64,000 bases of DNA from Ignavibacteria bacterium (GTDB taxonomy: Bacteria > Bacteroidota > Ignavibacteria > Tepidaquicellales > Tepidaquicellaceae), in the NCBI GenBank assembly GCA_026417495.1, contig JAOADD010000023.1, positions 1 to 64,000 on the forward strand, in the 5' to 3' direction. Position numbers and translations under genes: made by a program. Below the pieces are notes generated by a model. The model was not told the origin of the DNA. It searched no databases and saw nothing but the letters and a program-made list of their open reading frames with translations. Within the stretch, counting starts at the first letter, position 1; each line of letters starts with the position of its first letter. Positions 57,206 through 64,000 of this stretch are shown piece by piece.

Positions 57206-58708
57206 ATGAAATTACCCCGTGTAAAACTACATAATCAAATTCTGATTGGTCTTTTACTCGGGGTTTTTTTTGGTGCAATTTTTTCTATTAATCCTCATAA
57301 AATTGTAATTAGAACAGCCAGTGGGGAAGAGTTAGTATCAAATTGGAGTGAAATTACTTTCCTTAAAGATTCAATGCCGCAAATCGTTTTTTACTCCAAT
57401 GAACAGACACAAATTATTAAATTTTCCAAAGGATTTATCTCATCTTCTGAACATTTTTCTAGAAATGTTTTAGTAAAATATCCTGATGGGTCTAGTAAGG
57501 TGTTTTATCAAATTACAGCTATCGATAAAGTGAAAACTATTGGTGTTATGTTGAAACCAATTGGCGATATATTTATCAGATTGCTAAATATGATTGCAAT
57601 TCCACTCGTACTTGCTTCTTTGATTGTTGGAGCTGCTTCTTTATCAGATTTAAAAAATGTTGCGAAAATTGGTGGTAAAACTATTTCATTTTACTTGATG
57701 ACGGCAATTATTGCAATTACAGCAGGGCTTGTAATTGCTAACCTTATTCAACCCGGTCACTTTATGCCTGAAGAGAATAAAGAAAAACTTTTAGTAGCTT
57801 TTCAGGAAGAAGCACGAAGTAAAATTGAACAAAATGTTTCAATAAATGTTGTTGATTTCATTGTTAATATTGTACCAAGGAATCCATTTGCAGCAATTGC
57901 AAATGGGGATTTCTTACCAATTGTTTTTTTCTCAATTATGATTGGGGTTTTTCTAACACAAATTCCACAAAAAAAATCTCAACCGGTGATTAACTTTTTT
58001 GAAGGTATTTCGGAAGGTTTAATTTTCATGGTTGGTAAAATTATGTACATTGCTCCCTATGCTGTATTTACTCTTATTGCAGCTACTGTTGCTGAATTTG
58101 GGTTTAACATTTTACAATCACTTTTACTTTATACGATAACGGTAATTATTGGTTTATTGTTTATAACCTTTATTGAATATCCTACTTTACTAAAAATTTT
58201 TACTAAAATTAAAGTCAAAGATTTCTTTTCAACACAAAAAAAAGTCATTGCAGTTGCTTTTTCAACTTCTTCTTCCGCTGCAACCCTTCCAGTGACTATG
58301 GAGATTTGCGAAAAGAATCTTGGGGTACCAAACAAAATTGCAAGTTTCGTTCTACCACTCGGTACGACAATAAACATGGATGGTACTGCGTTATATCAAG
58401 CTGTTGCTGCTATGTTTATTGCTCAAGTTTACGGTTTTGATTTAAATATTACTCAACAAATTACCATTGTAATTACTGCTGTACTTGCTGCAATTGGTAC
58501 TGCTCCTGTTCCAGGGATTGGTTTAATTACACTTATCGTTATATTAAGGTCAGTTGGTATTCCTGAAGAAGGTATTGCTCTTATTATAGGAGTTGATAGA
58601 TTGCTGGATATGTGTAGAACTGTTCCAAATGTAATCGCTGATTCACTTGCATGCGTTGTTATTGCGAAAAGTGAAGGGGAACTCGGTCCGATAAAACTGG
58701 AAACTTAA
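57206..58708 (+). CDS. Dicarboxylate/amino acid:cation symporter (SDF/DAACS family) with enlarged first loop
   Basis: Sodium- or proton-coupled dicarboxylate/glutamate symporter of 500 residues. The diagnostic serine-rich and NMDGT motifs are present: AFSTSSSAATLPVTMEICE (about 350-368) and LPLGTTINMDGTALYQAVAAMFIAQ, then RLLDMCRTVPNVIADSLA. The N-terminal helix (about 9-25) and the conserved LKPIGDIFIRLLNMIAIPLVLASLIVGAASL (about 116-146) are separated by about 90 polar residues (TASGEELVSNWSEI through YQITAIDKVKTIG). This is far longer than the short loop of GltP-like proteins and should lie outside the inner membrane. It starts 24 bases after the receptor gene and may be co-transcribed. 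Confidence 0.93.
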   Translation: MKLPRVKLHNQILIGLLLGVFFGAIFSINPHKIVIRTASGEELVSNWSEITFLKDSMPQIVFYSNEQTQIIKFSKGFISSSEHFSRNVLVKYPDGSSKVFYQITAIDKVKTIGVMLKPIGDIFIRLLNMIAIPLVLASLIVGAASLSDLKNVAKIGGKTISFYLMTAIIAITAGLVIANLIQPGHFMPEENKEKLLVAFQEEARSKIEQNVSINVVDFIVNIVPRNPFAAIANGDFLPIVFFSIMIGVFLTQIPQKKSQPVINFFEGISEGLIFMVGKIMYIAPYAVFTLIAATVAEFGFNILQSLLLYTITVIIGLLFITFIEYPTLLKIFTKIKVKDFFSTQKKVIAVAFSTSSSAATLPVTMEICEKNLGVPNKIASFVLPLGTTINMDGTALYQAVAAMFIAQVYGFDLNITQQITIVITAVLAAIGTAPVPGIGLITLIVILRSVGIPEEGIALIIGVDRLLDMCRTVPNVIADSLACVVIAKSEGELGPIKLET

Positions 58709-58788
58709 TTAAAATCTTGGAAAAAGATATTATTACAAGACTTTGTCCTTTTTATTCCCTAAAAACTATTCTAATATAGAATTTAAAA

Positions 58789-59127
58789 TTACTTCTGACT
58801 GTTATCAGTCAAATTTTCTCCTATTGCTCGCAATATATCCCACGAGTAAATTCCTGTATTGTGTCCGTCTTTCCAGATGATATTTACTGCATAATTTCCA
58901 ACTGGTACAATTTTTTCTATTTCATAGAAACCCACAGGTTTAAAAGGTGCTTTTATAGGGATATAATCTGCTTCTACTTTTCCTTCTCCATTGCATGTTG
59001 CACATGGACATTTATCTCTAAGTACTGTTAATGGTATTTCATCAGCTCTACCGTCATTCCATCTAACCAATATTGTTTTCCCAAGTCTTTTTATTCTTGT
59101 TGGTCTATACTTATTCACTGATTCCAT
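58789..59127 (-). CDS. DUF971 domain protein
   Basis: Small cytosolic protein of 112 residues matching the DUF971 family (the N-terminal domain of gamma-butyrobetaine hydroxylases): PTRIKRLGKTILVRWNDGRADEIPLTVLRDKCPCATCNGEGK, then YAVNIIWKDGHNTGIYSWDILRAIGEN. The CPCATC cysteines sit where the family often binds a metal, and related domains accompany Fe-S or Mrp-type ATPases. Stand-alone members are common but their role is not established. Single gene on the minus strand, convergent with the symporter. Confidence 0.85.
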   Translation of the reverse strand: MESVNKYRPTRIKRLGKTILVRWNDGRADEIPLTVLRDKCPCATCNGEGKVEADYIPIKAPFKPVGFYEIEKIVPVGNYAVNIIWKDGHNTGIYSWDILRAIGENLTDNSQK

Positions 59128-59296
59128 ATAATAAAATAAGATAATTATTTTTTAATTTTTCTTAAAAATACATAAATTAACTTAATTTGAAAAGTTAATA
59201 TTTATTAAGAATATTCTTAAAATTTAATTTTTTTCATTCTTTTAAATTAAAAAGACTTGAATGGAACGGGCTATTCTGTTAATTTTTTTAATAATT

Positions 59297-59791
59297 ATGA
59301 AAATCTATAAATATATTTTTTTGCTTACAGTTTTAACTGTTGAAACAATTATTTTCAGTTGTGGAAAAAATGACAATCCCACAAATCCCACATACATTAA
59401 TACAGAAATCTGGAACTTTATTTATAATAACGATACAAATCTTAAACAGTTTAATATTTTCAAAAGGAAAACAGATAGTTCAGTTGTTATTGCGGGGACC
59501 TGGAAATTCTGGTTTGATACTTCAAAAGTAATTTGTCCGTTTTTTGATGCTTCAGTATTGTTTTTGAATGACTCAATAATTCGATTTTTTGGAAACGGAA
59601 ATGCTTTTTGCGCTAAATTTTTAGAGATACAACAACAAAACTCAACTTTTAATCTGGTAGTTGATGGTATTTTCAATAATGGTTTTGGATCTGGTAAATG
59701 GCAAATTACATTTACAAATCCTTTCTGGCCCTCCTCCGATAGTGGAATCTATTCTGCTTCGAGAACAAATGGTTCTGGTATTTTTCCCTAA
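59297..59791 (+). CDS. Putative lipoprotein of unknown function
   Basis: Protein of 164 residues with a typical lipoprotein signal: MKIYKYIFLLTVLTVETIIFSC, where IFSC is an acceptable lipobox. The mature part is beta-rich with KDSSVVIAGTWKFWFDTS-like strands and no domain I recognise. The frame is open from an ATG at 59261, but the start at 59297 gives the clean signal. It stands alone between the DUF971 gene (divergent) and a 313-base AT-rich spacer. An anchored outer-membrane or periplasmic role is likely from the signal only. Confidence 0.65.
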   Translation: MKIYKYIFLLTVLTVETIIFSCGKNDNPTNPTYINTEIWNFIYNNDTNLKQFNIFKRKTDSSVVIAGTWKFWFDTSKVICPFFDASVLFLNDSIIRFFGNGNAFCAKFLEIQQQNSTFNLVVDGIFNNGFGSGKWQITFTNPFWPSSDSGIYSASRTNGSGIFP

Positions 59792-60104
59792 TATTTTTAC
59801 TATTTCATATAATATTTTAAATATTTTTTTAGGGATTTTATTATATTAAGATAAATTTTTTGCTTTACATAATATTAACTTAGATTAATTTTATTATTTT
59901 TTCAAAATTTTTTCTCAAAAAGTAAATTTATTTTAAATTTTAAAAATTATCATCCGCATAAAGTAATTTAATTCAGTCTCAAATTTAGATTTAAATTAAT
60001 ATTTTGAGACTTTATTAAAACATATGTAAGAAATTTTACTAATATTTAATAAAAATAAATATGGCATTGTTTTTGCAATTATTTTTTGTAAAAAATATAA
60101 AAAA
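59792..60104. other. 313-base AT-rich spacer with a weak hairpin
   Basis: No gene or RNA was found. The only structure is AGTCTCAAA (59975-59983) pairing with TTTGAGACT (60003-60011) over a 19-base loop, followed by TTATT, which may act as a weak terminator for the lipoprotein gene. The remainder is AT-rich and should hold the promoter of the gene at 60105. Confidence 0.5.
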
Positions 60105-60584
60105 ATGAATTACAAAACTTTAATCTTCATTTTCATCCTACTTATAAGTGGATGCATATTTGCTCAATCAGCAATTTTACCTGATTTTGAAAGCGTATTA
60201 AATTCTAAGGTTGGTATTCCTTATGATAATTTGGTCCCTGCAAACCCTGAAAAATTTACTGTAAGGTTTACCTGTTCATTTGTGAAATTAACTTGGATTC
60301 CAAATAAAAATGATGATCCCGTTATTATTGCTTATAATTCTGTGAATAAATTTGGTACTCTTACGGACGGTAAAGAATATGAGGTTGGAGATATTCTACC
60401 CGATGGTGCAAAAATAGTATACATTGGAACTTGTGAACATTTCAGACATTTTAATCCACCTTCTGAAAATTGCTATTATAAGATTTGGTCGTTCAATAAG
60501 AATTTTATATACTCATCTGGAATCCAGGCAACCTGTATTGATGAATCGTTGATTAACTCCGTGATAAATTTTATTACTAATTAG
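60105..60584 (+). CDS. Small exported protein of unknown function
   Basis: Protein of 159 residues with an N-terminal signal (MNYKTLIFIFILLISGCIFAQ). The sequence ISGC also fits a lipobox, so it could be a lipoprotein. The mature part has DFESVLNSKVGIPYDNLVPANPEKFTVRF and ends SLINSVINFITN; I recognise no domain. It is unlinked to its neighbours: 313 and 154 bases of spacer flank it. After it, GGG-T-ATTTTT pairs with AAAAAT-CCC near 60633-60655, but no T-tract follows. Confidence 0.65.
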   Translation: MNYKTLIFIFILLISGCIFAQSAILPDFESVLNSKVGIPYDNLVPANPEKFTVRFTCSFVKLTWIPNKNDDPVIIAYNSVNKFGTLTDGKEYEVGDILPDGAKIVYIGTCEHFRHFNPPSENCYYKIWSFNKNFIYSSGIQATCIDESLINSVINFITN

Positions 60585-60738
60585 AATATCTAAAAATAAT
60601 TTTAAGATTTTTCTTTATAGTTTTTTAAAAGGGGGTATTTTTTGTAAAAAATCCCTATCTCAATTTAATTAAGTCATCATTATTTAAATTGATTTAATTT
60701 AAAAATTTAATTATGATAGGATAAAAATTTTTTATAAT

Positions 60739-61650
60739 ATGGAAAATTATTTGAGTACAGAATATTGGTCAAACTTGCTGAATAAAGCTGTAGATTGGTT
60801 AATTCAACATGCTCCTTCCATCATTGTTTTAATCATTTTACTATTTGTATCTCTGAAGCTATTTACTTTTCTAATAAAAAGGATAAAAAAGATTATTATT
60901 AAAAAAGTTGAAAAAAGTTCTCTTGATAAAATTGAATCTGAAAAGAGAATTAACACTCTTATGAGCATTATTTGTAAAACTGGTAGAGTAACTATCTGGA
61001 TAATATTCTTAATGATGTTACTAAAAACTATTGGAGTAGATATAGCCCCTATTTTGGCAGGAGCTGGTATTTTGGGATTAGCTATTGGATTTGGTGCACA
61101 ATCTCTTATTAAAGATGTAATTTCTGGTTTTTTTATACTTCTTGAAAATCAAATTAGAGTTGGTGATATTGCAACTATTAATGGAATTACTGGAACTGTT
61201 GAAGAAATTCAATTAAGAACCGTTATTCTTAGAGATATGACTGGCGTAGTACATATATTTGAAGCAGGAAAAATTGATTCACTTGCAAACATAACTAAAG
61301 AGTGGTCAGCAAGCATCTTAGATATTCCTATCGCTTATAAAGAGAATATTGATGAAGTTATTAAAATTATGAATGATGTTGCTGATGAACTTTATAAAGA
61401 TGAGAATCATAAGGATAAATTCCTTGCCCCATTTGAAATTTTTGGTTTAGAAAAATTTGATGAATCTGCTATTATTATTCGTGCAAGAATGAAAACTGTT
61501 CCACATCAACAATGGGCACTTGCTAGAGAGTATAGAAAAAGATTAAAAGCAGTATTCGATGAGAAAAATATTGAAATACCATTCAACCATATCTCACTTT
61601 ATTGGGGAGAGAAATCTAAACCATTGAGAGTTGAAGTAATAAAAAAATGA
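60739..61650 (+). CDS. Small-conductance mechanosensitive ion channel (MscS family)
   Basis: MscS-type channel of 303 residues that opens under membrane tension to release solutes on osmotic downshock. Three membrane segments (about 22-42, 72-90 and 95-117) lead to the pore helix ILAGAGILGLAIGFGAQSLIKDVISGFFILLENQIRVGD (about 105-143), the family's best conserved stretch with its Gly/Ala pattern. The beta-domain TVEEIQLRTVILRDMTGVVHIFEAG and a C-terminal alpha/beta cytoplasmic domain ending in YWGEK follow. It is a single-gene unit with no visible Shine-Dalgarno. Confidence 0.95.
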   Translation: MENYLSTEYWSNLLNKAVDWLIQHAPSIIVLIILLFVSLKLFTFLIKRIKKIIIKKVEKSSLDKIESEKRINTLMSIICKTGRVTIWIIFLMMLLKTIGVDIAPILAGAGILGLAIGFGAQSLIKDVISGFFILLENQIRVGDIATINGITGTVEEIQLRTVILRDMTGVVHIFEAGKIDSLANITKEWSASILDIPIAYKENIDEVIKIMNDVADELYKDENHKDKFLAPFEIFGLEKFDESAIIIRARMKTVPHQQWALAREYRKRLKAVFDEKNIEIPFNHISLYWGEKSKPLRVEVIKK

Positions 61651-62032: not shown

Positions 62033-62944
62033 ATGCGTATCAAAACAATTGACTTTCAGAAAGCCAAATCTTTAAGCATTGTCCAATTCTGTTCGGAACA
62101 AGTAGATTCTTTTAACTATGTTTCTGTGGGGTATGCTATTGATAAAAACTTGATTGAAATTAAAGAAATAAATCAAGCAGGTAGTGTAAATACTATTTTT
62201 GTAATTAACAAATCTAATGATTATGTTTTTTTTATGGATGGTGATGTTCTGAAAGGAGCAAAACAAAATAGAGTACTTAACACTTCAATTTTAGTTAAAC
62301 CAAATTCTAAAACTGAAATTCCTGTAAGTTGTGTTGAAGCTGGGAGGTGGAGATTTAGAACTTCTAGATTTCGAGATTCAGATTTTGTAGCTTCTCCAAC
62401 TATGAGGTCGGAAAAAGCTATAGATGTTCTTCATTCTCTTAAAAGTAATAGAGGGTTTATGGCAAATCAAGGAAATGTGTGGAATAAAGTTGATTTTTCC
62501 GCAAAAAAATTGGGTGTGTATTCTGATACTAGTGATTATTCAGAAATTTTTGAAAAGAAACAGAAATATTTTAAGGAATATCTTGATTCTTTTGTTGCCA
62601 ACAGTGATGCAAATGGTCTTGCAATATTTATGAAAAATAAATTGCTCAGTATTGATTTATTTAATCGTAGAGATATCTTTTCAGAGTATTTCCCTAAGAT
62701 AATCAAGGGTGCTGCAATTGAAGCATATAATATGAAAGAAGAAAATGGAATAGCTGAGAGTGAAGCATTTTATAAATTAAATAATTTTTTTGATAAGTAT
62801 GAAAATATTGAAAAGGTTACCCACAATTCTGTTGGAGCTGGAGTTGAGAAGAGGTTTGAAAATAAATTTATTACAGGTTTTGAGTTAGAATATGAAGGAA
62901 AAACTATCCATTTTGCTGCAATGCAATTAGAGGAAAATCTATAA
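62033..62944 (+). CDS. ARPP-1 domain protein
   Basis: Protein of 303 residues without signal or membrane segment. The pattern VFFMDGDVLKGAKQNRVLNTSILVKPNSKTEIPVSCVEAGRWRF (about 67-110), with conserved GD, K-G-A-KQNR-N and CVE-GRW, is the ARPP-1 domain (ARG and rhodanese-phosphatase-superfamily associated). The C-terminal part FAAMQLEENL closes it. Its biochemical role is not established, though the conserved Cys may be reactive. No phosphatase or rhodanese gene is adjacent here. A GC-rich hairpin follows 13 bases after the stop. Confidence 0.85.
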   Translation: MRIKTIDFQKAKSLSIVQFCSEQVDSFNYVSVGYAIDKNLIEIKEINQAGSVNTIFVINKSNDYVFFMDGDVLKGAKQNRVLNTSILVKPNSKTEIPVSCVEAGRWRFRTSRFRDSDFVASPTMRSEKAIDVLHSLKSNRGFMANQGNVWNKVDFSAKKLGVYSDTSDYSEIFEKKQKYFKEYLDSFVANSDANGLAIFMKNKLLSIDLFNRRDIFSEYFPKIIKGAAIEAYNMKEENGIAESEAFYKLNNFFDKYENIEKVTHNSVGAGVEKRFENKFITGFELEYEGKTIHFAAMQLEENL

Positions 62945-63208: not shown

Positions 63209-63232
63209 AAATATTGGTGAAGGAGTAATTAA

Positions 63233-64000
63233 ATGAGGTTTAAATTAACACTGAAACAAAATAAAGAAAATCAACTAATCCCCTTCAATTATCAATACTA
63301 CCTTTCTTGTTTTATTTATAAAACTATTGCCCGTGCAAATTCGGATTATGCTGAATGGTTACATGATCAAGCTTTTAGCTCCGGATATAAAAAATTTAAA
63401 TTATTTTCATTCTCTAGATTAAACATTCCTCAATTTGAATGTGAAGGGATGTATATAAAAATCTTATCACCTTATCTTTATTTGATTATAACTATGCTTG
63501 TTGATGAAATTGCCGAAAATATTGTACTTGGCCTCTTTCAAAATCAACAAATGTTTATCAACAATGGTGATGAACTTGCTATTTTCAGAATTAAGTATGT
63601 AGAACGATTACCCGACCCACAATTTACAGAAACAATGCATTTTAAGACTTTATCTCCCATTTTGATTAAGAAAAAGGAAAAAATCAACGGTGTTGATAAA
63701 GTTATTTTCCTTAGACCAGATGACGAAGATTACTTTCAATATTTAAAAACGAACCTTGAAGAGAAATATATAACTTTTGCACAGAAGAACAATACTAAAA
63801 TTCCCGAAAGGTCACTCGACTCATTTAAATTACTTGATCGTTACAAACCAGACTTAATCACAATAAAAGAAGGCAACCAAAATGAAGTAAAACTCAAAGC
63901 ATATAATATGACATTTGAATTAACTGGCTCACCCGAGATGATGCGCATCGGGTATGAAGCAGGTTTTGGTGTAAATAACAGTTTAGGCCTTGGCTGCGTA
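63233..64000 (+). CDS. cas6: CRISPR-associated endoribonuclease Cas6 (partial, runs off the right edge)
   Basis: Open frame of 256 codons from an ATG with an AAGGAG site, with no stop before the window end. The product matches Cas6, which cuts CRISPR precursor RNA in the repeat. The N-terminal ferredoxin-like part has NYQYYLSCFIYKTIARANSDYAEWLHDQAF with His44, in the place of the general-base His of Cas6, then Lys53/54 and KLFSFSRL. The C-terminal glycine-rich GFGVNNSLGLG is the Cas6 hallmark. Cas6 is usually about 220-270 residues, so little is missing. No CRISPR repeat is visible upstream. Confidence 0.92.
   Translation, partial: MRFKLTLKQNKENQLIPFNYQYYLSCFIYKTIARANSDYAEWLHDQAFSSGYKKFKLFSFSRLNIPQFECEGMYIKILSPYLYLIITMLVDEIAENIVLGLFQNQQMFINNGDELAIFRIKYVERLPDPQFTETMHFKTLSPILIKKKEKINGVDKVIFLRPDDEDYFQYLKTNLEEKYITFAQKNNTKIPERSLDSFKLLDRYKPDLITIKEGNQNEVKLKAYNMTFELTGSPEMMRIGYEAGFGVNNSLGLGCV

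Follow-up and report, generated by a model that had tools for sequence, protein, structure and literature searches.

The window, by which we mean the whole analysed stretch of 64,000 nucleotides from the genome of an uncultured Ignavibacteria bacterium, ends inside an open reading frame on its forward strand. That frame and the features leading up to it are the following, where G002 is the sister genome described below.

60739 to 61650, + strand: MscS-type channel gene, 77% identical to the gene adjoining cas6 in G002
62033 to 62944, + strand: ARPP-1 (PF20208) gene, directly upstream of cas6 on the same strand
63219 to 63225, + strand: ribosome-binding-like site AAGGAG ahead of the cas6 ATG, from direct reading of the sequence
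63233 to 64000, + strand: cas6, first 256 codons, with the 3' end lost where the contig stops at 64001

The cas6 frame opens with ATG behind a GGAG motif at about 63221 and runs through 256 codons without a stop, as the preliminary description had it, because contig C11 (G000:C11) ends at base 64,001; the gene has been cut by the assembly and not merely by the window. Since the G002 orthologue has 270 residues, about 14 codons are missing.

An HMM search upholds the earlier identification of the product. The ORF scores 112.5 bits with NCBIfam TIGR01877, above the equivalog cut-off of 58.65, and exceeds the cut-offs of Pfam PF01881 (96.4 bits against 23) and PF21350 (62.1 bits against 27), PADLOC matches it to Cas6b with E=4e-66, and the nearest solved structures by sequence are 5yi6 (E=5e-24) and the P. 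furiosus Cas6 3pkm/3i4h (E=2e-17). The catalytic triad of PfuCas6 is Tyr31/His46/Lys52 (PMC3652601). When the ORF is aligned to 3pkm and 5yi6, its Tyr29 and His44 fall on Tyr31 and His46, and its Lys53 comes close to the aligned Lys52; all three residues are invariant in an alignment of eight homologues, with His44 exactly at the position first given for it. The 2 motifs singled out in the preliminary description, KKFKLFSFSRL and GFGVNNSLGLG, are both present, and K53, K56, F58, F60, G244, G246, S250, G252, and G254 within them are invariant among the eight homologues. The likeness to known Cas6 proteins thus covers the whole length of the match, the Tyr/His/Lys active site, the glycine-rich C-terminal loop, and, in relatives, a position adjoining type III effector genes; there is no functional difference, only the final codons lying outside the assembly. 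The ORF is a genuine Cas6, which by family is predicted to be a crRNA-processing endoribonuclease.

It is the single cas gene visible in the window, where, in agreement with the preliminary description, there is no repeat array and the 13 cas and associated genes in the sister locus have no match among the other ORFs. That isolation is what could be said for the ORF being a RAMP protein that is like Cas6 but takes no part in CRISPR. Against this stand the TIGR01877 equivalog score, the invariant catalytic residues, and the orthologues located in the cas operons of relatives, which reduce the chance of such a protein to almost nothing; as far as sequence allows, that reading is refuted. The MscS-type channel gene is a syntenic landmark for the cas6 flank and lies outside the CRISPR system.

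The gene between the channel and cas6 deserves a separate remark. ARPP-1 is rejected as a dedicated CRISPR gene, being widespread (63 of 294 genomes of the class) and, in G002, missing from the corresponding position and found 420 kb from cas6. It is inside or beside a cas operon in our own genome (G000), G015, G040, and G244, with the same adjacency to cas6 in G015. Of 37 cas-positive cases, 7 have ARPP-1 at most 15 kb from cas1 or cas6, where no more than 0.8 would be expected; this count takes in our own genome, which prompted it, and a distance limit that was set after the data had been seen. We take this proximity as a lead only, and an association of ARPP-1 with the CRISPR locus as possible but unproven.

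To see what a complete version of the locus looks like, we turn to relatives. Among 59 genomes searched for Cas6 relatives, 7 were positive besides our own, and the closest is G002 (CP054675.1, Ignavibacteria bacterium Ch128a), a genome of the same genus assembled as a single contig of 2,403,876 bp. Its Cas6 is 75% identical to the one in the window. The order of genes from there is cas6, cas10/csm1, csm2, csm3, csm4, csm5, a Card1-like CARF nuclease, csx20, a second Card1-like nuclease, an NE0113 CARF protein, cas1, cas2, a tetratricopeptide repeat (TPR) protein of 591 residues, and an array of 141 repeats at 1029054 to 1038746. The Cas10/Csm1 of 774 residues scores 486 bits against TIGR02578 (cut-off 170), with its HD motif at residue 21 and GGDD around 580; Csm2 to Csm4 have PADLOC matches; Csm5, 551 residues long, scores 112.9 bits against TIGR01899, above cut-off; and both Card1-like proteins have the CARF-PD(D/E)xK architecture. 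With a Csm1 bearing both the cyclase GGDD and the HD motif, and with Csm2, Csm3, Csm4, and Csm5 all present, G002 is a type III-A genome. In gene order and family matches, its locus is like type III-A (Csm) systems that have Card1/Can2-type CARF nucleases and a Csx20 ring nuclease; unlike them, it has a conserved TPR protein after cas2 and a long Csm5. The cas6 in G002 has the same MscS-side flank as the cas6 in the window, which bears out the earlier suggestion that the window ends where a CRISPR-Cas locus opens, and the choice once left between types I and III for a stand-alone Cas6 narrows to type III, most likely III-A.

Our own genome (2.19 Mb in 76 contigs, 99.8% complete, 1.0% contaminated) holds the rest of the locus on 2 further contigs. 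C27, of 7,891 bp, starts with the C-terminal part of csx20 and continues with a Card1-like nuclease, the NE0113-family CARF protein, cas1, cas2, and the TPR gene. This set is 67-83% identical to its G002 counterparts (Cas1 78%), the Cas1 is of the Cas1b type, on which the Cas1b call for this locus is based, and a search of the assembly found no second cas1. C60 ends in the array, of which it holds 2 complete repeats and the opening part of a third; the outermost complete repeat is degenerate, as repeats at distal array ends are. C60 also carries 6 genes at 65-84% identity to the left flank of G002, placed just before a gene for a 319-residue RtcR-CARF protein, and C11 carries 5 genes (window 57206 to 61650) plus cas6 at 60-85% identity to the right flank. 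Because both flanks are syntenic with G002, the contigs can be ordered as C11, C27, and C60. An exact match to the 2 spacers was sought in IMG/VR and not found. The features outside the window are these.

L013:409-2181, - strand: gene for the TPR protein of 590 residues, directly behind cas2, contig C27
L013:3572-5052, - strand: genes for 3 small helical proteins (126, 151, and 140 residues), between the NE0113 CARF gene and cas1, contig C27
L023:6220-7179, - strand: gene for the RtcR-type CARF protein, about 1 kb from the distal array end, contig C60
L016:1433-3046, L017:12577-14214, and L018:1242-2821: DUF4407 loci of relatives

The RtcR-type protein has a 44% identical relative near ARPP-1 and cas6 in G015 (L019:13531-14457). 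The 3 small helical proteins are carried by C27 and absent from G002, and these unannotated proteins before cas1 are a further point in which our own genome is unlike the type III-A systems named above. They have no Pfam or PADLOC match, their relatives lie at the corresponding position in G017, G018, and G023, and a fair model of the family (pLDDT 82) gave no PDB fold match. A DUF4407 membrane protein with a partner of about 190-205 residues sits just before cas1 in the III-A loci of G011, G018, and G023; DUF4407 is before cas1 in G015 too and is absent from our own locus.

The preliminary description placed effector genes and an array downstream of cas6. The cas1/cas2 end on C27 and the array end on C60 are in line with this, but cas10 and csm2-5 are not found in the assembly. 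Projected onto G002, the window cas6 breaks off at L014:14594 and C27 sets in within csx20 at L014:6625, leaving a gap of 7,968 bp, in which G002 has cas10/csm1 and csm2-csm5. A genome-wide search for cas10 and RAMP genes, the RAMP part of which was positive in four control genomes, found none elsewhere in our assembly. The contig ends do not overlap: a 19-nt stretch near the end of C11 has no second copy, and no 15-mers are common to the ends of C11, C27, and C60. We infer that the gap of about 8 kb between C11 and C27 contains the effector module (cas10/csm1 and csm2-5), which the assembly lacks without the cell necessarily doing so. Since that module is observed in the sister genome and not in our own, the subtype III-A of our own genome is likewise an assignment carried over from G002.

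How might the gap be filled otherwise? Modules can be swapped, because the distant relatives G244 (L103) and G089 (L114) keep cas1-cas2-TPR and csx20/Card1-like genes while carrying Cmr-like genes in the effector slot; a III-B (Cmr) or other module in place of Csm would also fit the lack of cas10 and csm genes in the assembly. Even so, G002, which belongs to the same genus and has identical flanks, a 75% identical Cas6, and a 78% identical Cas1, is III-A, and Csm-type genes are carried by all the remaining loci of the family in which the TPR gene is kept and the effectors lie on the same contig (G011, G018, and G023), so that we consider a non-Csm module improbable. A true loss of the module from the lineage, with Cas6, cas1, and cas2 as remnants or acting in trans for another locus, is more improbable again. 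The genome is 99.8% complete yet without cas10 and RAMP genes, as a loss would have it; but C11 and C27 both end in mid-gene, in cas6 and csx20, as assembly breaks do, and metagenome assemblies commonly break, or drop a contig, at variable CRISPR loci. Furthermore, the Cas6, cas1, and CARF genes are intact over the stretch that can be read, and the genome has no second cas1.

Hence, we regard it as very probable that the ORF at the window end is the Cas6 of a chromosomal type III-A (Csm) locus, split over C11, C27, and C60, with cas10/csm1 and csm2-5 lost in the gap between contigs. The 30-nt repeat read on the gene strand is ATTTGAATTGAACCATAGTGGAATTGAGAC, and its folding is weak (-1.7 kcal/mol, z -0.2). 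A poorly folding repeat is expected for substrates of PfuCas6-type enzymes. The last eight bases, ATTGAGAC, resemble what we take to be the usual 5' handle of Cas6-processed crRNAs.

In type III systems generally, Cas6 processes the array transcript into crRNAs, which direct the Csm complex to phage transcripts; Cas10 breaks down DNA and makes cyclic oligoadenylate, CARF proteins respond, and Csx20 removes the signal. Applied to this locus, the scheme would have Cas6 cut the pre-crRNA inside the nearly unstructured repeats, leaving each crRNA with a putative 8-nt 5' handle AUUGAGAC, and hand the crRNA to the Csm complex. On meeting a complementary phage RNA, the complex would let Cas10, whose HD and GGDD motifs are intact in G002, degrade DNA and make cyclic oligoadenylate. 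The CARF domains would sense this and switch on the Card1-like nucleases; the signal would be destroyed by Csx20 and perhaps also by the NE0113 protein. New spacers would be added by Cas1-Cas2, probably together with the neighbouring TPR protein. Of these families, Csx20 has demonstrated cA4 ring-nuclease activity (PMC12409355), and Can2/Card1 are cA4-activated nucleases that degrade both DNA and RNA (PMC11229360).

The type III locus itself is mostly ordinary, and the main point of interest is its one unusual part, the TPR protein. A profile built from five such proteins was run against 294 genomes of the class at E <= 1e-20, finding relatives in 15. In all 15 the gene is on the same contig as cas1, with less than 1 kb between the matched stretches and with cas2 beside it; the order is cas1-cas2-TPR in 14 and cas2-cas1-TPR in G017. 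The effector modules it accompanies are III-A (for example in G002, G011, G018, G148, G241, and G282) as well as III-B-like (G244 and G089). In Anaerolineae and Poribacteria there are more distant relatives, and these lie away from cas genes, which suggests that a general TPR protein was recruited to the cas locus.

The predicted structure of the protein (pLDDT 84) is a TPR superhelix with an N-terminal section of about 120 residues that is alpha/beta. Its fold matches are to general TPR superhelices only (LGN and consensus TPRs), a comparison by which the N-terminal section was barely tested. Pfam on the orthologues from L014 and L017 gives TPR-type matches only, and NCBIfam on the C27 protein gives weak TPR matches only. 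The nearest known case is that of the CAPP-TPR proteins, CRISPR-associated primase-polymerases with a TPR domain, which are encoded with cas1-cas2 and reported to bind Cas1 (PMC8211822). The protein described here is like them in bearing TPRs and being encoded with cas1-cas2, but unlike them in that the scans detected no AEP/Prim-Pol domain. The literature that we searched has no description of a cas2-linked TPR protein of this kind, though an earlier one may exist.

From the position of the gene we guess at a role in adaptation. Within the class, it occurs only beside cas1-cas2, and it stays with the adaptation module whether the locus is III-A or III-B, so it would probably bind Cas1-Cas2, the leader, or pre-spacers. 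That it is an undescribed spacer-acquisition component of Cas1b-type loci in this class is a tentative proposal, which we hold at slightly short of an even chance.

As a locus, this is one more type III-A system, rightly recognised from one truncated gene and with its missing parts now located, and has little significance in itself. The testable lead is the TPR protein, which, in the genomes sampled from the class, never occurs uncoupled from cas1-cas2, whatever the effector type. Should it indeed act in adaptation, the small group of accessory proteins made up of Cas4, Csn2, reverse transcriptases, and CAPPs would gain a member.
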